DNA of 64,000 nucleotides from Alphaproteobacteria bacterium (GTDB lineage: Bacteria; Pseudomonadota; Alphaproteobacteria; UBA9219; RGZA01): positions 1-64,000 of the forward strand of contig JANRLI010000013.1 in NCBI GenBank assembly GCA_033762625.1, in the 5' to 3' direction. The translations under genes were made by a program, and so were the position numbers. This document shows positions 1,543-40,143 of this stretch, one piece after another; position 1 is the first letter of the stretch, and each line of letters starts with the position of its first letter. The notes beneath the pieces are model-generated. The model had not been told where the DNA came from. It did no database searches and saw only the letters and a program-made list of their open reading frames with translations.

Positions 1543-2253
1543 TCACACAGATTTCGTTCCTTCGCCGCTGGCACGGTCGGATTGCTTCGAAAGATCGCCG
1601 ATGAGCCAAGCCATCAGACGCCATCCGGCCAATGCGCCGAGCAACTGCGCAATTATAAATGAAGCGACATGCAGTGGATTTATGCCGGCAAACGTGTCTG
1701 TCAATGCGCGTGCGATCGTCACTGCGGGATTTGCGAACGAGGTCGATGCGGTGAACCAATAGGCGGCGGTGATATAGAGCCCAACAGCGACCGCGACAAA
1801 GTCTGGCTTGAACCGCACGCAACCAAGGATGGTGACGAGCAATCCGAACGCGGCAACAAACTCGGCAAACCATTGGGATGGTCCTGTCCGTGCCGTCGTT
1901 GAAAATTGGAGCAGTGGCAGGTCGAACATGGCATGCGCGGCCATGGTGCCCAAACAGCCGCCGATAATTTGCGCAATGATGAAAGGAACGAGTTCTGCTT
2001 TACTAAGATCGCCACGCATCGCCATGACGAGGCTGACGGCTGGATTGAAATGGGCACCGGAGATCGGCCCCAACACCGTGATCAGCACGACAAGAATTGC
2101 GCCGGTGGGAAGCGTATTGCCGAGAAGGGCAAGTGCGATATTGCCGCCCGCAAGCTTGGCGGCCATGATGCCGGAGCCGACGACGGTTGCGACAAGCAGG
2201 CCAGTGCCCAAAGCCTCGGCGGCCAGTCTTTGATTGCGATCAAACGTTTCCAT
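1543..2253 (-). CDS. aqpS: Aquaglyceroporin of the arsenic operon (AqpS-like)
   Basis: This is a membrane channel of the MIP family, about 236 residues with six hydrophobic helices and the two pore half-helices. The first NPA motif is in HFNPAVS (residues 70-72) and the second in FANPAVT (175-177). In water-only aquaporins the second NPA is usually followed by Arg; here it is Val, as reported for the Sinorhizobium meliloti AqpS channel of an ars operon. With arsenate reductase next door, the likely role is downhill exit of arsenite made inside the cell. I prefer the METFDRN start at 2253, which has GGGGAA just upstream and a short overlap with arsC; an upstream ATG at 2274 would lengthen the overlap and lacks a clear site. 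It is the last gene of the operon. Confidence 0.88.
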   Translation of the reverse strand: METFDRNQRLAAEALGTGLLVATVVGSGIMAAKLAGGNIALALLGNTLPTGAILVVLITVLGPISGAHFNPAVSLVMAMRGDLSKAELVPFIIAQIIGGCLGTMAAHAMFDLPLLQFSTTARTGPSQWFAEFVAAFGLLVTILGCVRFKPDFVAVAVGLYITAAYWFTASTSFANPAVTIARALTDTFAGINPLHVASFIIAQLLGALAGWRLMAWLIGDLSKQSDRASGEGTKSV

Positions 2254-2698
2254 TATTCCCCACACGGCGGCCATGTTCGTCTATGACACGCTCACCATCT
2301 TCTTTTTGAAACGCGCCGCGCTGCGCTGTCGGCAATAAATCTAGGACCGCTTCGGATGGGCGACACAATTTGACACCGAGCGGCGAGACAACAACCGGAC
2401 GATTGATCAGGATAGGGTGTGCCATCATCGCATCTAGCAGTTGATCGTCGGAGAGTGATGGGTCGCCTAGCCCAAGCTCGGCAAAGGGCGTGCCTTTTTC
2501 GCGCAGCACACTACGAACCGAAACGCCCATGCGCTTGATGAGCGAGATCAAAAGTTCGCGGTTCGGCGGCGTTTTCAGATATTCGATGATGTGCGGCTCC
2601 AAGCCGGCGTTACGAATCAGACCCAATACATTGCGAGAGGTGCCGCAATCCGGGTTGTGATAGATGACGATGTCGATGGGGTTCTTGATGTCGGCCAT
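2240..2698 (-). CDS. arsC: Arsenate reductase, glutaredoxin-dependent type (ArsC)
   Basis: This 152-residue member of the ArsC/Spx thioredoxin-fold family reduces arsenate to arsenite in the cytoplasm using glutathione and glutaredoxin. The catalytic motif HNPDCGTSRN carries the active Cys at residue 18. The later segment LINRPVVVSPLG contains the Arg that helps bind arsenate in the E. coli plasmid enzyme. Length and domain layout are normal for the family. It lies one base downstream of the second, unrelated arsenate reductase and overlaps aqpS, so the three are surely co-transcribed. Two mechanistically different reductases in one operon is notable. Confidence 0.93.
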   Translation of the reverse strand: MADIKNPIDIVIYHNPDCGTSRNVLGLIRNAGLEPHIIEYLKTPPNRELLISLIKRMGVSVRSVLREKGTPFAELGLGDPSLSDDQLLDAMMAHPILINRPVVVSPLGVKLCRPSEAVLDLLPTAQRGAFQKEDGERVIDEHGRRVGNNGNV

Positions 2699-2699
2699 C

Positions 2700-3239
2700 T
2701 CAACCCGCTTTCGGTGTGGGGATCGACGCGCCGTTCAATCGTCCAATCTCGCGAAGTCTCGATCTGAGAGAGAGTTCGTCGATCGATTTGAGGGGAAGAT
2801 TGGTGAAAGCGAGAATGCGATTTTTCATGTAGCGAAACGCTGTGACGAACGCCGCCTCTTTCTGAATATCCGTTCCCTCGACGGCGGCGGGATCTTCAAT
2901 GCCCCAATGCGCGGTCATTGGCTGCCCTGGCCAATAGGGACAGGCCTCGCCGGCAGCGTCGTCGCAGACCGTGAAGACAAAATCCATCTGCGGCGCTTCT
3001 GGTCCAGCAAACACATCCCAGCTTTTCGAGGACATGCCATCGGTTGGATAGCCAAAGCTGCTCAGAACTTTGAGTGCGAAAGGGTTCACCGCGCCTTTGG
3101 GTTGGCTACCTGCTGAGAAGGCTTGGAACCGGCCAGCACCTTCTTTGCGCAAGATTGATTCAGCCAGGATCGAACGCGCCGAATTGCCGGTGCAAAGAAA
3201 CAGAACATTATAGACGCGATCACTTTTTTGCACGGACAT
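2700..3239 (-). CDS. Arsenate reductase, low-molecular-weight phosphatase type
   Basis: This 179-residue protein belongs to the low-molecular-weight tyrosine phosphatase superfamily. The phosphate loop CTGNSARS (Cys16 to Arg22, the CX5R signature) sits right after the first strand VLFLC, as in all members. A later FTVCDDAAGEACPYWPG segment gives two further cysteines about 8 residues apart, the pattern used by thioredoxin-coupled ArsC enzymes to relay the disulfide, and an Asp-Pro (IEDPAA) matches the general-acid loop. It overlaps the end of arsR by 20 bases and precedes the glutaredoxin-type arsC. Reduction of arsenate is therefore the likely job; a protein phosphatase role is less likely given the operon. 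Confidence 0.88.
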   Translation of the reverse strand: MSVQKSDRVYNVLFLCTGNSARSILAESILRKEGAGRFQAFSAGSQPKGAVNPFALKVLSSFGYPTDGMSSKSWDVFAGPEAPQMDFVFTVCDDAAGEACPYWPGQPMTAHWGIEDPAAVEGTDIQKEAAFVTAFRYMKNRILAFTNLPLKSIDELSLRSRLREIGRLNGASIPTPKAG

Positions 3240-3591
3240 GGCGGGAGCCTCCTTTGGGCTGACAACAGGGGTTGAGTTCGGCGATGAGCGGGGCGCAAAT
3301 TTCGGGGCGACCTCCGCAGCAATCCTTCAAAAGAAATGTCACCACTCCGCGCAACTGATCCAAGCTTGCCTGGTACACGATGGACCGGCTGTGCCGTGTG
3401 AATTTCACGAGACCGGCGCGAGCTAAGATCGAGAGATGGGTCGACATCGTGTTGTGCGGAACATCGAGGGCTTGCGCGATTTCACCGACCGGCAATCCGC
3501 CGGGCTCGTGACTGATCAACAAGCGGAATACCGCGAGCCGTGTTGGTTGCGCCAAAGCAGAGAGCGCCGATATGGTTGCTTCATCGTCCAT
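3220..3591 (-). CDS. arsR: ArsR-family arsenic-responsive repressor
   Basis: This is a winged helix-turn-helix repressor of about 123 residues. The N-terminal half (ALAQPTRLAVFRLLI, then VGEIAQALDVPHNTMSTHLS as the recognition helix near residues 35-53) is typical of ArsR/SmtB. Cysteines cluster late: Cys91-Cys92 (LKDCCGG), Cys99 and Cys109-Cys110 (NPCC), a likely arsenite site placed at the C-terminus rather than in the E. coli-type helix. I choose the ATG at 3591 (MDDEAT); the open frame extends 22 residues further, but that extension is unlike the family and runs through the promoter. ArsR should release the operon promoter when arsenite binds. Confidence 0.92.
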   Translation of the reverse strand: MDDEATISALSALAQPTRLAVFRLLISHEPGGLPVGEIAQALDVPHNTMSTHLSILARAGLVKFTRHSRSIVYQASLDQLRGVVTFLLKDCCGGRPEICAPLIAELNPCCQPKGGSRHVRAKK

Positions 3592-3598
3592 ATGTCGA

Positions 3599-3627
3599 GA
3601 TATACAGATATATTGGGTAACGGTCAA
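3599..3627 (-). promoter_or_regulatory. Sigma70-type promoter of the ars operon
   Basis: On the minus strand, TTGACC (3627-3622) is followed after exactly 17 bases by TATATC (3604-3599), a good -35/-10 pair. The start of transcription would fall about at the arsR ATG (3591), implying a leaderless message. AT-rich repeats (ATATATCTGTATATC) cover the spacer and -10 region and are the likely ArsR operator. Confidence 0.6.
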
Positions 3628-3860
3628 TAGAGATGTGCATTGGCCAAGCACCATCATCTGAGGCCGTTTGTTGGGAACGTGCTCCTTACATGAAGACTAA
3701 AAATATAGCCTAGTAATATCCGGGAAAACGACGAAGCACGTTCGATCCTCTGGTGATGTTTTGGAAACTCCGCGAACCAATGCGCCAACGGATTGAAATG
3801 GAACATTCTTTCTGAGAGCATGCCATCAAAGCTATCAAATAATGCAACTGGCCAACGCGC

Positions 3861-4130
3861 ATGAAAGACGAAACAGCATACATGATCGAGCGCATTGAAC
3901 GTGCTCTGATGTTGCTCGCAGCATTCATTGAAATGGATGGCGACGCGCATGTGCCGATGTACGAGCGGTTTGAAGCCGAACTTGAGCGGCTGCAACGTGC
4001 GGAGACCACCAAAGATCGCGCGCGCCGATTGCTCTCAAGCTACAACCGCAGTGGTGGATTGAAGGCGATTGCCGATAAGAATTTGAGTTTGAGCTCCAGC
4101 GACGGCCCTTTTCCGTACTTAGGTTTGTAG
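3861..4130 (+). CDS. Small conserved mobile-element-type protein, unknown function
   Basis: This 89-residue protein has a long amphipathic helix (AYMIERIERALMLLAAFIE, residues 6-24), then a charged helical region (RFEAELERLQRAE), then the tail SSYNRSGGLKAI. The helical core and the end near SGGLKAI look like a genuine protein of the type found in alphaproteobacterial islands. The last 25 residues run antisense into the 3' end of the integrase gene, so the original stop may have been lost or replaced there. The ribosome binding site is weak. Function unknown. Confidence 0.5.
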   Translation: MKDETAYMIERIERALMLLAAFIEMDGDAHVPMYERFEAELERLQRAETTKDRARRLLSSYNRSGGLKAIADKNLSLSSSDGPFPYLGL

Positions 4131-5350
4131 GTTTTGTGACCCATCAAGCTATCGATGAGACTGTCGGGAGCTTCCGCGCCAATTAGCCTGTCCTTGAAAT
4201 TGTGACGCAGCGAATAGACCGTATGACCCCGCGTGGGTCGCAGCTTATTCTCGGTCAGATATTTGTTGAGCGTCGCTGATAGACTCGATGATTTGTCGCG
4301 GTATCGCGGAAAGCCGTCTGGATGCAGACGCAGTGCGGCGAGAGCCACGCCAACCAACGGTATTTCGCGCTCTGAATCCTCCGTCTTCAACCGCCGACCT
4401 TCTGGCAGAATTTTCACATGTGGAATCGGCGTGTCCAGGCATATCGTTGCCGACGTCAGGTTGACCACCTCTGATGGCCGAAGCCCCGTATCAGCCATAA
4501 CGTAGATCACGCTACGAGCCTCCTCATTGAGTCCATCTAGCGCTCCTTCTGCGAGCAAGATGTTTTGGATGAAGTTTGTTTCGAAGGGCACGCGGGCGTT
4601 CTCTGTCTCCCCGCGCAGGCGAAGCCCTTTAAAGATCTCCGGAATTTTGAGGCGCCGCCTGACGCTCACATCCTTCAACATCCGGCTAATTTGGCCAATG
4701 TCGCGATTGGCGCTCTTTGCGACGGCGTTGCCAGCGGCGATACGGCTGCGCCACCATTCGACGTAATCCAACCCGTCATCCTCGGTGACATGGGTCAACG
4801 GTTTATCGCCGACGCGACTGACAAATTGTTTGACCGACCGCGCACGAGACGTGCGCCAGATGCGCAGTTGTTCGGGTGAAAGGCCCTTCGTCTCGTCCAC
4901 AACAAGAGCCTCGAACTCTTCGCACAGCTTGGAAAGCATCGGGATCGGGCGCTTCTCTGTCCCAAGCACCGCTGCCCGTGCGACCGGTTTGTCGGCGACA
5001 CCCTTGCTGACTAAGGATTCAAGGCGTTCTAGTAGTCGTTCGATGGGAAATTGGAGTAGCTGTTCACCTTCCACATAGTCATAGCCGAGGGCACGCGCGC
5101 ACTGCCGGGCTGTCTCAAACCGCTCGGTGGTCTCCCACGTTTGACCAAGGGACGCAGCGTGCCAGGAGGCCTCAAGATCGGCGTTCAATTTCTCAGCTAT
5201 CTGGGAGGCGCGACGGCCATTGCGGTCGTCCTGCACTTTTACCTTCGTCGATTGCCATACGATGACCCGCTCGTCGAACGACGCGAACTCCAAAGGGACG
5301 CGGCGGACGAAGTACCAAGTACCATTGCGGCGGGTCAAAAAATCGGACAT
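4040..5350 (-). CDS. Tyrosine recombinase (island integrase)
   Basis: This is a phage-type integrase of about 436 residues. The N-terminal part (MSDFLTRRNGTWYFVRRVP) is the SAM-like/arm-binding region; the catalytic part carries the first Arg in GLRPSEV, the second in YSLRHNF, the His in LMGHKT and a Tyr in PKYGKG as nucleophile. The ATG at 5350 is preferred: it opens the typical integrase N-terminus, while the frame continues open to 5527 through a tandem repeat. The gene starts about 190 bases from the tRNA-Gly 3' end and reads away from it. It should integrate and, with a small helper, excise the island at that tRNA. Its last 91 bases overlap the convergent ORF at 3861-4130. Confidence 0.9.
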   Translation of the reverse strand: MSDFLTRRNGTWYFVRRVPLEFASFDERVIVWQSTKVKVQDDRNGRRASQIAEKLNADLEASWHAASLGQTWETTERFETARQCARALGYDYVEGEQLLQFPIERLLERLESLVSKGVADKPVARAAVLGTEKRPIPMLSKLCEEFEALVVDETKGLSPEQLRIWRTSRARSVKQFVSRVGDKPLTHVTEDDGLDYVEWWRSRIAAGNAVAKSANRDIGQISRMLKDVSVRRRLKIPEIFKGLRLRGETENARVPFETNFIQNILLAEGALDGLNEEARSVIYVMADTGLRPSEVVNLTSATICLDTPIPHVKILPEGRRLKTEDSEREIPLVGVALAALRLHPDGFPRYRDKSSSLSATLNKYLTENKLRPTRGHTVYSLRHNFKDRLIGAEAPDSLIDSLMGHKTYKPKYGKGPSLELKLKFLSAIAFNPPLRL

Positions 5351-5360
5351 GCGGCGGCGG

Positions 5361-5396
5361 TTTGTTAGACGATTTGTTAGACAGTTTGTTAGACGA
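5361..5396. repeat. Three 12-bp direct repeats between integrase and tRNA-Gly
   Basis: TTTGTTAGAC occurs at 5361, 5373 and 5385, each followed by GA or AG to give a 12-bp unit, with a degenerate fourth unit starting at 5397. They lie just upstream of the integrase ATG, between the gene and the attachment site. Position and repetition suit arm-type integrase sites or a directionality-factor site. They are also in frame with the integrase. Confidence 0.7.
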
Positions 5397-5540
5397 TTTG
5401 CTTGCTCTGCCGGAGTGACGCACTGGCAGTGCGCGCCAAGCATAGCGCGGCCTTTCCCGGAAAGGCTTGTAATGATTGGTAATTTCATGGATTGGCTCTC
5501 CTCGTTGGAGAGCGCTTCGAGCTTCAATCGATCAGAAGAT

Positions 5541-18578: not shown

Positions 18579-19379
18579 ATGAAGCCATTTTTGAAATGGG
18601 CCGGCGGAAAGTACCGTATTGTAGGCAAAATTAAGGATGCGCTTCCAGCAGGTAAGCGGCTGATCGAGCCGTTTGCAGGTTCGGCAGCCGTTTTTTTGAA
18701 TACTGATTATCGCGATAATCTAATTTCTGATTCAAACGCTGATATTATAAATATTTATCTACACCTACAAGAAAACGGCAAAGATTTCATTGATTATTGC
18801 AGAAAATTTTTTATTAAAAGTAATAATACTAAAGAAAGATTTTATGAGTTGAGAGAGAGGTTTAACCAGACTTCAGTTTTAGAATTGAAAGCTGCGCTAT
18901 TTCTTTATTTAAATAGGCACTGCTTTAATGGTCTTTGTCGTTATAATTCCAGAGGGAAGTTCAATGTACCTTTTGGTAAATATACAAACCCTTACTTTCC
19001 TAATGATGAAATGTTGTATTTTTATGATAAAAGTAAGAACGCGACATTCATTCGTGCTGATTTTAAGGAGATTATGAGAAAAGCTAGACGTGGTGATGTT
19101 GTATATTGCGACCCTCCTTATGTTCCCTTATCTAAAACCTCAAATTTCACGGCCTATACTCAGAGTGGGTTCGGGCCAGTAGAACAGCAGGATCTCGCAG
19201 ATATTGCCGAAGAGTTGCAGGCCCAAGGTGTTACGGTCGTTATTTCAAATCATAATACTGCATTTACTCGTAGTGCATATAAATCAGCAAAAATTAAAAA
19301 ATTTGATGTGCAAAGGTTCATTTCTAGTGATGGCGACAACCGAGGGGCAGCGCAAGAATTGTTAGCTGTGTTTTCCTAA
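18579..19379 (+). CDS. DNA adenine methyltransferase, Dam/DpnM-like (GATC)
   Basis: This 266-residue alpha-class N6-adenine methyltransferase (D12 class) has the AdoMet motif FLKWAGGKY at residues 4-12, catalytic DPPY in VVYCDPPYVPLS near residue 180, and the long match to E. coli Dam around NRHCFNGLCRYNSRGKFNVP, NPYFPNDE and ISNHNT. That places its target as GATC with good confidence. The gene is markedly AT-rich. It opens a three-gene set whose members touch or nearly touch (one-base overlap, then one-base gap), and it protects host DNA from the partner nuclease. Confidence 0.93.
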   Translation: MKPFLKWAGGKYRIVGKIKDALPAGKRLIEPFAGSAAVFLNTDYRDNLISDSNADIINIYLHLQENGKDFIDYCRKFFIKSNNTKERFYELRERFNQTSVLELKAALFLYLNRHCFNGLCRYNSRGKFNVPFGKYTNPYFPNDEMLYFYDKSKNATFIRADFKEIMRKARRGDVVYCDPPYVPLSKTSNFTAYTQSGFGPVEQQDLADIAEELQAQGVTVVISNHNTAFTRSAYKSAKIKKFDVQRFISSDGDNRGAAQELLAVFS

Positions 19380-20251
19380 TGCGAGCGTCGCAGTCTAAAA
19401 AAGTTAAGTTAGACGACGCGATGCTGGCGCAACCCTCATCGTTTGTACTTGGTTTTTCAGAACCTCAATTTAAAAATGCGCTTGCATATGAAGATGGCAT
19501 AAACGGAATATATCTCTATCAGCAAGACTGCTTTGAATTGATGGATAAGATTGCACAGAAATATCCAGACGGATGTTTTGATATGGTCTTTGCAGATCCT
19601 CCTTATTTTTTATCAAATGGCGGTATTACTTGCCATGCTGGAAAGATGGTGAAGGTTGATAAAGGAAAATGGGATAAATCAAAAGGCGCGGAAAAAAATC
19701 ATGAATTCAATTTAGATTGGCTCTCACGCTGTCAAAAATTGCTCAAGCCAAACGGTACAATTTGGGTTTCTGGCACCATGCATGCAATTTATTCTATTGG
19801 TTTTGCTATGCAGCAGCTTGGGTTTAAAATGCTAAATGATATTGTATGGGAAAAACCAAACCCACCTCCTAATTTGGCCTGCCGCTATTTCACTCATTCA
19901 ACAGAAACTGTTTTATGGGCTGCAAAAAATGCCAAATCAAAGCATTATTTTGATTATGACTTTATGAAATCTGAAAATGATGGAAAGCAAATGAAATCTG
20001 TATGGCGTATTTTGCCGCCAGATAAATCAGAAAAATTGCATGGAAAGCATCCAACGCAAAAGCCAGTTTCTTTAATTGAGCGCTGTATTCTTGCTTCAAC
20101 TAAAGAGGATAATTTTGTTTTTGACCCTTTTGCAGGTAGTTCAACTACTGGTGTAGCGGCTATCAATACTGGACGACGATTTTGTGGCGTTGAAAAAGAA
20201 AAAGAATTTGTCGACTTGTCAATCAAGCGCTTAATAGCAGCGGGGGGATAA
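19379..20251 (+). CDS. Second GATC methyltransferase, DpnA-like
   Basis: This 290-residue beta-class DNA methyltransferase has the catalytic DPPY in FADPPYFLSNGGITCHAGK near residue 72 and the AdoMet motif DPFAGSSTTGVAA near residue 254. Long stretches such as NPPPNLACRYFTHSTETVLWA and HPTQKPVSLIERCI match DpnA of Streptococcus pneumoniae, which methylates GATC also on single-stranded DNA and so protects incoming transforming DNA. Its start overlaps the Dam-like gene stop by one base (TAATG), so translation is coupled. AT-rich like its partners. Confidence 0.9.
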   Translation: MRASQSKKVKLDDAMLAQPSSFVLGFSEPQFKNALAYEDGINGIYLYQQDCFELMDKIAQKYPDGCFDMVFADPPYFLSNGGITCHAGKMVKVDKGKWDKSKGAEKNHEFNLDWLSRCQKLLKPNGTIWVSGTMHAIYSIGFAMQQLGFKMLNDIVWEKPNPPPNLACRYFTHSTETVLWAAKNAKSKHYFDYDFMKSENDGKQMKSVWRILPPDKSEKLHGKHPTQKPVSLIERCILASTKEDNFVFDPFAGSSTTGVAAINTGRRFCGVEKEKEFVDLSIKRLIAAGG

Positions 20252-20252
20252 A

Positions 20253-20786
20253 ATGAAAAAAGGTGGCAAGGGCGGGGCAAATACTAAATCAGGCTTAATA
20301 TTCGAAAAAGCAATAGATTTTAAAACTATATTAATTGGCACTAATGGTTATGCAGTCCGGCCTGTTAAAGGCAAGGCGGGGACAGGGATATTTTATCATG
20401 ATAAATTAGTAGCTTTTAACTATGCAAAGAATGATTTTTATAAATTTCTTAAAGAGAGAAATGTTGTTTGGGAAGATAAAATTTCAAAACGTCTACTTCC
20501 AGACGATGCACTGCTTGTGATTATTCGCGATACTTTATTCATTATTGAGGTCAAAACTCAAACAGTAGAGGGATCTGTTGATGAAAAATTGCAAACTTGC
20601 GATTTTAAAAGGAAGCAGTACCAAAAACTTGTCGCCGACTTAGAATTAAAAGTTGAATATGTGTATGTTTTAAATTCTTGGTTTAAAAAACCAAAATATA
20701 AAGATGTTTTAGATTATATAAGCAGTGTTAATTGCCATTATGTCTTTGAAAAAATCCCATTAAAATGGCTCGGGCTTCCAACTTAA
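20253..20786 (+). CDS. Probable type II restriction endonuclease, PD-(D/E)XK type
   Basis: This 177-residue protein lies directly after two GATC methyltransferases and has a strong GGGGG site before its ATG. The motif PDDALLVIIRDTLFIIEVKTQ gives the Asp, then Glu-Val-Lys of a PD-(D/E)XK nuclease, followed by GSVDEKLQTCDFKRKQYQ, a segment common in small type II enzymes. The N-terminus GGKGGANTKSGLIFEKA is also typical. It does not read like DpnII/MboI or the MutH-like Sau3AI nuclease, so it may be an unrelated nuclease recruited to GATC. Specificity is inferred from its neighbours only. Confidence 0.72.
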   Translation: MKKGGKGGANTKSGLIFEKAIDFKTILIGTNGYAVRPVKGKAGTGIFYHDKLVAFNYAKNDFYKFLKERNVVWEDKISKRLLPDDALLVIIRDTLFIIEVKTQTVEGSVDEKLQTCDFKRKQYQKLVADLELKVEYVYVLNSWFKKPKYKDVLDYISSVNCHYVFEKIPLKWLGLPT

Positions 20787-37054: not shown

Positions 37055-39022
37055 ATGTACACTCAGCCATTACGTAAGGAAAAGAATCTGGCCGATGCGG
37101 CGGGCTTCAGCATCGATGATGTTGCCAAGGGCGTGGATAACGCGCGCGATGCGTTACTTAAACTCCAAAAGGCGGATGGCCACTGGGCATTCCCATTGGA
37201 AGCCGATGCGACCATTCCTGCTGAATACATTTTGCTACAACATTTTCTGGATGAGATAAACCAGCCGCTGCATGACAAGATGGCGGTCTATTTACGTAAT
37301 GACCAATCGAATGTGCATGATGGATGGGCACTGTTTCATGGCGGCGATTTCAATATCAGTACCAGTGTGAAGGCGTATTTCGCATTGAAGGCCGCAGGCG
37401 ATAGCGCTGATGCGCCGCATATGATCCGTGGGCGTGATGCGATTTTAAAACATGGCGGCCTTGCCAAATGCAATGTATTTACCCGCATTCAATTGGCATT
37501 ATTCGGCATTTTGCCTTGGCATGCTGTGCCGGTCATGCCGATAGAAATTATGGTGCTGCCGCGTTGGTTTCCATTTCATTTATCAAAAGTGGCGTATTGG
37601 TCACGCACCGTGATTGTGCCATTGCTGGTTTTGATGACGTTAAAGCCGCAAGCTGTCAATCCAAAGAAAATTACATTGGATGAATTATTCGTTGCGCCAC
37701 CTGAAACGGTGAAAGATTGGAATTCGAATGAAACCAAATCCATACTCAACCCCATTTTTCGTGTACTGGACGATGTGCTGCGTTTCTTTGAACCCTACAT
37801 GCCAAAGGGGCTTCGGCAGTACTCGATTGACAAGGCGGTTGCCTTTGTAAAGGAGCGCCTGAATGGCGAAGATGGTCTTGGCGCGATTTATCCCGCTATG
37901 GCAAATGTGGTGATGATGTATTCCGCGCTGGGTTATGATAAAAATCATCCAGACCGCGTCATTGCAACCAAAGCCGTTGATAATCTGGTGATTGAAGAAA
38001 AAACCAGCGCTTATTGCCAGCCATGTTTCTCACCCATTTGGGATACAGCGCTCATGGCGCATGCCATGCTGGAAGACGGCAGCCCGGAAGCAATTGCGGC
38101 AACAAGGCGTGCAGCAGAATGGCTCAAAAAACTCCAGGTATTAGATGTCGTTGGCGATTGGGCAAATTGGCGCCCGAATGTTCGCCCAGGCGGTTGGGCC
38201 TTCCAATATAACAATGCGTATTATCCAGATTTGGATGATACCGCTGTGGTTGTTATGGCAATGGATAGATTGGATAGCGCCAAATACCGCGAAGCCATTG
38301 AGCGCGGCACGGAATGGGTATTGGGTCTGCAAAGCAAAAATGGTGGTTGGGGCGCATTTGATGCTGACAACACCTATTACTATCTCAACCACATTCCGTT
38401 TGCTGACCATGGCGCATTGCTTGATCCACCAAGCGCGGACGTGACAGCACGTTGTTTGGGTATGCTTGCGCAGCTGGGTTACAAAATTGACCATCCTGCG
38501 GTTGCAGCCAGCATTGCTTACCTGCGTAAAGAACAGGAAAAAGAAGGTTGCTGGTTTGGCCGTTGGGGCACGAACTATATTTACGGTACATGGTCGGTAC
38601 TGAACGCTCTAAACGCGATTGGTATAGGCAAGAATGATTTGATGGTTCGCCGTGCTATTAACTGGCTTGTATCCAAGCAACGCGACGATGGCGGTTGGGG
38701 CGAGGATGGCGCAAGCTATTGGAGCGATCAGCCGAAAGGTGAGGGCAAGGTAAGCACGCCTGCGCAAACCGCTTGGGCTATTCTTGGGTTGATGGCATTT
38801 GGTGAAATCGACAGCGATGCTGTGAATAAGGGCATAAACTACTTGCTCAAAACACAAACGCCGGAAGGCCTGTGGAACGAGGATTATTACACCGCTGTTG
38901 GATTCCCAAAGGTGTTTTATCTTCGCTATCACGGCTATAAGGCGTTCTTCCCGCAATGGGCGCTGGCACGCTATAAAACGCTAAAAAACAGCAATGCATC
39001 ACAAACCATGTTTGGAATGTAA
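37055..39022 (+). CDS. shc: Squalene-hopene cyclase
   Basis: This protein of about 655 residues is a membrane-associated class II triterpene cyclase that folds squalene into hopene/hopanol. The proton-donor motif DXDD is present as PDLDDTAVV; QW repeats are visible as GHWAFPLE, KNGGWGAFDADNTYY, EGCWFGRWGTNYIYGTW and DDGGWGEDGASYW. The start is set at the ATG at 37055 (MYTQPLRKE), with AGGAAC upstream; an in-frame TTG lies at 37040. Its stop overlaps the start of the KamA-like gene by one base. This is the central gene of the hopanoid pathway. Confidence 0.96.
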   Translation: MYTQPLRKEKNLADAAGFSIDDVAKGVDNARDALLKLQKADGHWAFPLEADATIPAEYILLQHFLDEINQPLHDKMAVYLRNDQSNVHDGWALFHGGDFNISTSVKAYFALKAAGDSADAPHMIRGRDAILKHGGLAKCNVFTRIQLALFGILPWHAVPVMPIEIMVLPRWFPFHLSKVAYWSRTVIVPLLVLMTLKPQAVNPKKITLDELFVAPPETVKDWNSNETKSILNPIFRVLDDVLRFFEPYMPKGLRQYSIDKAVAFVKERLNGEDGLGAIYPAMANVVMMYSALGYDKNHPDRVIATKAVDNLVIEEKTSAYCQPCFSPIWDTALMAHAMLEDGSPEAIAATRRAAEWLKKLQVLDVVGDWANWRPNVRPGGWAFQYNNAYYPDLDDTAVVVMAMDRLDSAKYREAIERGTEWVLGLQSKNGGWGAFDADNTYYYLNHIPFADHGALLDPPSADVTARCLGMLAQLGYKIDHPAVAASIAYLRKEQEKEGCWFGRWGTNYIYGTWSVLNALNAIGIGKNDLMVRRAINWLVSKQRDDGGWGEDGASYWSDQPKGEGKVSTPAQTAWAILGLMAFGEIDSDAVNKGINYLLKTQTPEGLWNEDYYTAVGFPKVFYLRYHGYKAFFPQWALARYKTLKNSNASQTMFGM

Positions 39023-40143
39023 TGTTAGTCGCGCAGCGTCAATTCATTGATACGCAAGAAGACCGCAATACAGCCTATGCTGCATTAGCCAAGACACATG
39101 GCTTGTTATCGGTAAAAGTTACGCCATTCTATCAAAGAAAAATTGATCAGGAAGTTGCAGCGCTTGGCCATTACGAAGGGCCGTTGGCGCGCACGGTATA
39201 TCCCAGCGCTGAACGTCTTACACTTCGTGCACCGGGAGAAGTGGCGGATTGGGTCGATGACCGCAGTAATATGGAAGATGATGCGAAAGATATTTTTATT
39301 CAAAAATATCCTGACCGCGTGTTGTTTACACCGACATCCACCTGCGCTGCGCATTGCCTCTATTGTTTCCGTCAGGATGTGCTAAGCCAACAAAAAACTG
39401 CACCGCGTCCAAGCATCGAACAGCAATGCGATGCGCTGATAAAGCATTTAAAAGCGCATCCGGAAGTGTATGAAGTGATTTTATCGGGCGGCGATCCGCT
39501 CACGCTTTCATACGGTGATTTGCAAACCATTTTTGAAAAAATTGCGACTGTAAAAACAGTAACCGATGTGCGAATTCACACACGTGTACCGATTTTTTCT
39601 CCCGCGGCATTGAAGAATGATGATAAATTGGCTCTGTTTGCAAAACATAATGTGCGGATGATTTTGCACAGCGTGCATCCTTATGAAATTTGTGATGAGG
39701 TGGCTGCGTTGCTGGAGCGCATGCATGCGCATGGTATTCGGTTATACAACCATTTTCCTATGCTACGTCATGTAAATGACCATGCGGATGTGTTATTGGA
39801 ACTGATGCAAAAACTCGAAGCGCATCATGTAAAAACACTTTCCATTTATGTGCCTGAACCCATCAATTTTTCTGCTACTTACCGTATTTCCTATGACCGC
39901 ATGTGCGCGATCATTGATGAGGTGAATGTGCGTGCATCTGCTTGGTTAAACAGTTTCCGATTTTGTTTGGATAGCCCGTTTGGGAAAGTGCGCCGCGAAA
40001 ACCTCAAGATGCGCGATAGGCTGAGCCAGCGTTTAGTCTTTATGCGTGAAAACCAGCGGATTGATTATCCTGACTTTCCAGCCAGCATGGATAGACCAGG
40101 AAATATCAAAACCATGTTGTGGAAGATGAAGAAAGCCACCTAA
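39022..40143 (+). CDS. KamA-family radical SAM enzyme (lysine 2,3-aminomutase-like)
   Basis: This 373-residue protein has the radical SAM motif CAAHCLYC (Cys108, 112, 115), followed by ILSGGDPLTL. The PLP-binding Lys of lysine 2,3-aminomutase is retained as Lys322 in LDSPFGKVRREN, about 207 residues after the last cluster cysteine, close to the spacing in the clostridial enzyme. The Gly-rich loop there is shortened (SPFGK instead of a run of Gly). Residues that bind the lysine side chain are not clearly conserved. It could act on lysine, another amino acid or a lipid-linked amine. It is translationally coupled to squalene-hopene cyclase, which is unusual; no EF-P gene is nearby to suggest EpmB. 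Confidence 0.82.
   Translation: MLVAQRQFIDTQEDRNTAYAALAKTHGLLSVKVTPFYQRKIDQEVAALGHYEGPLARTVYPSAERLTLRAPGEVADWVDDRSNMEDDAKDIFIQKYPDRVLFTPTSTCAAHCLYCFRQDVLSQQKTAPRPSIEQQCDALIKHLKAHPEVYEVILSGGDPLTLSYGDLQTIFEKIATVKTVTDVRIHTRVPIFSPAALKNDDKLALFAKHNVRMILHSVHPYEICDEVAALLERMHAHGIRLYNHFPMLRHVNDHADVLLELMQKLEAHHVKTLSIYVPEPINFSATYRISYDRMCAIIDEVNVRASAWLNSFRFCLDSPFGKVRRENLKMRDRLSQRLVFMRENQRIDYPDFPASMDRPGNIKTMLWKMKKAT

Follow-up and report, generated by a model that had tools for sequence, protein, structure and literature searches.

The gene directly downstream of the squalene-hopene cyclase gene shc in this DNA, here called P0001, encodes a protein that resembles lysine 2,3-aminomutase (LAM), and the two genes overlap by a single base. 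This layout raises the question of whether a radical SAM aminomutase takes part in hopanoid synthesis. An earlier note on the window (the whole 64,000-nucleotide stretch analysed) had proposed such a role, in making an amino-containing side chain or a hopanoid-linked beta-amino acid, with an independent role in amino acid or osmolyte metabolism as the alternative. Here, we argue that P0001 very probably has no part in hopanoid synthesis. With a probability of roughly 0.72, it encodes a divergent KamA enzyme that takes the functional place of EpmB, providing EpmA with (R)-beta-lysine.

The overlap itself is as the earlier note described. Base 39022 is both the last A of the shc stop codon TAA and the first base of the P0001 start codon ATG, giving the junction TAATG. 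The cyclase gene is genuine (770 bits to TIGR01507, cut-off 431), and P0001 is an uninterrupted frame of 373 residues (Table 1). Since P0001 directly follows shc on the same strand in each of the five genomes that make up the window's family (G000-G004), their end-to-start layout is not due to chance. The exact junction differs among these genomes and reads TAATG, TGATG, or TAA with ATG right after it. The overlap suggests that the two proteins may be made together.

Table 1. Positions in the window of shc, P0001 and the residues of P0001 compared with LAM
Feature	Position	Strand	Basis or remark
shc, squalene-hopene cyclase	37055 (ATG) to 39022; alternative TTG start 37040	+	TIGR01507, TAATG sequence
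P0001, divergent KamA-family radical SAM/PLP aminomutase (putative)	39022..40143	+	ORF, NCBIfam/Pfam scores, LAM fold match, EpmA co-occurrence
Radical SAM motif C108-x3-C112-x2-C115	39343..39366	+	invariant within P0001 clade
R117, LAM R134 equivalent (substrate carboxylate)	39370..39372	+	alignment
E279, LAM D293 equivalent (substrate epsilon-amino group)	39856..39858	+	alignment; D/E in every member
D317-S-P-F-G-K322, LAM D330 and PLP lysine K337 equivalents	39970..39987	+	alignment

To read the active site, P0001 was aligned with 11 orthologs, 30 canonical alphaproteobacterial sequences and E. coli EpmB; LAM was aligned separately, with residue numbers and roles that we take to be those of the 2a5h structure. 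P0001 is a radical SAM protein (PF04055) that keeps the three cysteines and the PLP lysine of LAM-like enzymes, as had been noticed before, and D317, G321 and K322 are invariant across its clade. The shortening of the loop around this lysine is also real: the segment leading up to K322 lacks two residues relative to that of LAM (D330-APGGGG-K337) and to the usual alphaproteobacterial DIPGGHGK, and it is shortened clade-wide. The lysine-binding residues, which the earlier note had called not clear, can be matched one by one to those of LAM, and R117, D/E279, D317 and K322 are present in 12 of the 12 P0001-type members aligned. Judged from the alignment, every catalytic and substrate-binding position of P0001 appears compatible with lysine. 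An AlphaFold model built with 9 sequences (pLDDT 83, pTM 0.85) has LAM 2a5h as its best PDB fold match (E 3e-21, TM 0.74 by query, 24% identity), with the next other family, RlmN, far behind (E 5e-6).

The six best NCBIfam models of P0001 all describe KamA-family aminomutases, and none is above its curated cut-off: TIGR03822 (AblA_like_2) gives 152 bits against 396, TIGR03821 (EpmB) 150 against 369, TIGR00238 (KamA subfamily) 148 against 199, TIGR03820 (LAM/AblA) 123 against 525, TIGR04468 (arginine 2,3-aminomutase) 118 against 600, and TIGR04368 (glutamate 2,3-aminomutase) 95 against 650. Other full-length members of the P0001 type reach 129-150 bits to TIGR00238, also below 199, and each of the five members scanned has EpmB or AblA_like_2 as its top named model. 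For comparison, E. coli EpmB reaches 534 bits with TIGR03821. P0001 does stand apart from the named LAM, EpmB, arginine and glutamate enzymes, as the earlier note had expected. In the tree, the P0001 type forms one clade (support 100/100), whose stem is 3.4 changes per column long. The clade is placed weakly (85/55) beside LAM-like sequences and not beside E. coli EpmB, which is itself long-branched. It is a separate, fast-diverging group, and because the tree gives it no firm position relative to EpmB, the TIGR03822 type and the LAM-like sequences, we do not file P0001 as an EpmB member; our claim is that it would work in an EpmB-like way.

Comparison with the known systems gives a similar picture. 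Like EpmB (YjeK), P0001 has the KamA fold, CxxxCxxC, the PLP lysine, the substrate arginine and acidic residues and a short C-terminus, and it occurs with EpmA and with an EF-P carrying the PGKG lysine; it differs in its score, its very long stem, its shorter loop and its location away from efp and epmA. AblA_like_2, the usual KamA of Alphaproteobacteria and often beside epmA, resembles P0001 in score, class and partner EpmA, but is only ∼30% identical, has the DIPGGHGK and DxAPGTxHFR motifs that P0001 lacks, and was never found together with the P0001 type in one genome. LAM offers the best fold match and the equivalent residues, and a DPIxxSAxFR-like motif in P0001 is common to LAM-like alphaproteobacterial sequences; unlike LAM, P0001 ends ∼50 residues past the PLP lysine.

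The assignment to the EF-P pathway comes from the company that P0001 keeps. The window's own genome has EpmA (379 bits, cut-off 287), an EF-P above cut-off with the PGKG lysine, and no canonical KamA above cut-off. EpmA is above cut-off in 11 of the 13 genomes with the P0001 type, and canonical KamA in none of them; the two in which EpmA was not found are the fragmented drafts G001 (98% complete, 290 contigs) and G004 (89% complete). Both EpmA and KamA were tested in 54 genome entries, and canonical KamA was above cut-off in no genome of the P0001 type. We also sampled 387 genomes evenly from the Alphaproteobacteria, counting as EpmA-bearing five whose EpmA-like frame is short and below cut-off; here, 104 of the 110 genomes with canonical KamA have EpmA. 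All six genomes with the P0001 type (seven of seven if G132 is included) also have EpmA, and none has canonical KamA as well. The mutual exclusion of the two types among EpmA genomes has a Fisher p of 5e-5, a value uncorrected for relatedness, in that related genomes are counted as independent and the P0001 type represents about five independent lineages, so the statistics rest on few events. YjeK/EpmB was first assigned to EF-P by the same co-occurrence reasoning (PMC2821294).

Several observations count against the replacement of EpmB: no P0001-type member whose surroundings were read adjoins efp or epmA, all scores lie far under the EpmB cut-off, the clade has a very long stem and is not placed beside E. 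coli EpmB, EpmA was not found in G001 and G004, and the independent lineages are few. The usual alphaproteobacterial KamA, which scores as the TIGR03822 type, helps to judge the first. Of 84 such genes, 44 have epmA no more than 3 kb away, which ties this type to EF-P, and 38 lie apart from epmA, so the location of P0001 is not unusual. In favour of the replacement, efp adjoins epmA in Zavarzinia and Phaeovibrio, and no canonical epmB was found there. The conserved EF-P Lys34 was uninformative as a discriminating test, because EpmA-less genomes keep this lysine too. We would like to point out that 19 EpmA genomes in the sample of 387 (e.g. G180, G199, G232 and G233) have no detected KamA-type protein, so EpmA does not strictly demand a KamA-type enzyme. 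These genomes suggest a lost beta-lysine supply, the use of alpha-lysine, or a further unrecognised enzyme.

The window's genome also encodes a second KamA-like radical SAM protein (L002, positions 802-2343 of contig C3 in G000; 513 aa), which is found in G002 as well. That this protein is the real EpmB is unlikely: it scores ∼71 bits to KamA models, was not found in G001 or G003, and has similar frames of 554-555 aa in G246 and G315 beside canonical KamA and EpmA.

Could P0001 instead be a free-standing lysine 2,3-aminomutase, serving lysine catabolism or a beta-lysine osmolyte and unrelated to EF-P? The retained lysine-binding residues and the weak grouping with LAM-like sequences would fit, and this independent role, which the earlier note had offered as its plain alternative, is nearer to our results than the hopanoid role. 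However, AblB, which is needed to make the N-acetyl-beta-lysine osmolyte, was absent from all 14 P0001-type holder entries searched; the osmolyte route is rejected on this ground, and EF-P modification is the better plain explanation. P0001 also scores lower as a LAM than as EpmB or as the TIGR03822 type, and the six sampled KamA genomes without EpmA all fall in a high-scoring, LAM-resembling group, whereas EpmA is present in every sampled P0001-type genome. We therefore consider a free-standing role unlikely.

It is likewise improbable that P0001 is a KamA-derived enzyme with a changed substrate, such as another amino acid or a residue in a peptide or protein, with the match to EpmA reflecting shared ancestry or chance. 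The very long stem of the clade, the replacement of LAM D293 by glutamate in part of it, the loop shortened in all members and the small number of independent lineages would speak for a changed substrate. Against it stand the lysine-compatible positions and the pattern complementary to canonical KamA, which is complete in the 387-genome sample.

How far the association with shc reaches is seen from the distribution of the P0001 type. Within the window's family, identity to P0001 ranges from 89% down to 47%, and the pairing with shc is found only there, in five genomes of two genera. In a scan of 84,980 species, the only further orthologs (47-51% identity) came from Chthonobacter albigriseus, Phaeovibrio sulfidiphilus and Zavarzinia; profile searches added further f45 genomes and G132. 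In a phylum-wide search with the clade profile, clear members were confined to Alphaproteobacteria; two weak matches outside the class had scores like those of canonical KamA. The expectation that the family would sit beside shc elsewhere thus held for the five genomes of the window's family and failed in three Zavarzinia, C. albigriseus, Phaeovibrio and G132, where the surroundings were read and the ortholog is not beside shc. Orthologs in such places are what the earlier note had named as speaking against its own hopanoid proposal. The neighbours of the ortholog, named by eye from the sequence, are hemW-like and ABC-transporter genes in Zavarzinia and ribosomal and elongation-factor genes in G132. 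No shc was found in Z. marina, Zavarzinia D_3_2, Z. aquatilis or Chthonobacter, all of which have the P0001 type; in Phaeovibrio shc is present, though away from the ortholog. Conversely, the P0001 type was not found in sister families of the same order that have shc.

The surroundings of the pair point to operon packing. The block CorC-shc-P0001 is kept in G000-G004, with UDG and dxs next in the four genomes that cover that side, and in the window hpnA, hpnC, hpnD, hpnE, hpnG, hpnH and dxs are near P0001. In the sister-family genomes G006 and G017 of the same order, hpnG immediately follows shc. A gene that overlaps or abuts shc is thus nothing unusual in this order, and P0001 fills the hpnG slot without being a hopanoid gene by family or distribution. 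The best reading of the overlap is that it reflects how the operon is packed and not hopanoid chemistry.

Several other features of this region were noted. Between hpnA and hpnC (18579-20786) lie genes for two DNA methylases, one a D12-class adenine DNA methyltransferase and the other of the N6/N4 type, and a 177-aa ORF that has no Pfam match and is a possible endonuclease; together they resemble restriction-modification genes that were inserted into the hopanoid operon. Just after P0001 (40283-41368) comes a protein of 361 aa that is rich in SAPS/APSS repeats and matches no Pfam family; a relative (72% identical) follows the P0001 type in G002, and no match was found there in G001. At the left edge of the window (1543-5527), a phage-type integrase (PF00589) stands next to genes that look arsenate-related by eye; together they are likely an integrated element.

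One might still ask whether the overlap was selected for, with the beta-lysine supply of EF-P coupled to hopanoid synthesis so that membrane lipids and polyproline-rich translation are co-regulated. We consider this very unlikely. Some closeness between the genes of the two pathways is seen elsewhere: in Phaeovibrio, efp-epmA lies ∼9 kb from shc. In G011, of a sister family (L193, 5285-8719 of contig C125), epmA, whose product is 48% identical to the EpmA of the window's genome, lies 470 bp downstream of shc; an shc-epmA operon was rejected there, with a probable opposite-strand tRNA seen by eye between the two genes. Hopanoid tailoring by P0001, despite the one-base overlap, the hopanoid genes nearby and an adjacency to shc kept in two genera while about half of the P0001 residues changed, is highly improbable and is rejected because orthologs occur in genomes without shc; the Phaeovibrio ortholog away from shc, the sister families with shc alone, the unrelated CorC, UDG and prmC in the conserved block, and a literature search that found no link between an aminomutase and hopanoid synthesis also speak against it.

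Returning to the replacement of EpmB, our inferred scheme, from the reaction and its stereochemistry through to EF-P as the end target, is as follows. P0001, as a radical SAM and PLP enzyme of the lysine 2,3-aminomutase type, would convert L-lysine to (R)-beta-lysine, which EpmA would ligate to Lys34 of EF-P, and the modified EF-P would relieve ribosome stalling at polyproline. The P0001 clade may have taken over from the usual TIGR03822-type EpmB of Alphaproteobacteria in a few lineages, and in the window's family its gene would have come to occupy the position right after shc that hpnG holds in related families.

The finding is a useful correction of annotation and a modest discovery, and not new hopanoid chemistry. 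The case also cautions against inferring function from a tight overlap, as P0001 sits in a hopanoid operon slot and has relatives in genomes without the hopanoid cyclase. The 19 EpmA-bearing genomes without KamA suggest that more variants of the beta-lysine supply step exist. If our reading is right, a KamA clade that falls below current NCBIfam cut-offs can carry out the EpmB function, and the P0001 type would be the 'missing EpmB' in several Alphaproteobacteria whose genomes hold EpmA and EF-P and no recognisable enzyme for making beta-lysine.
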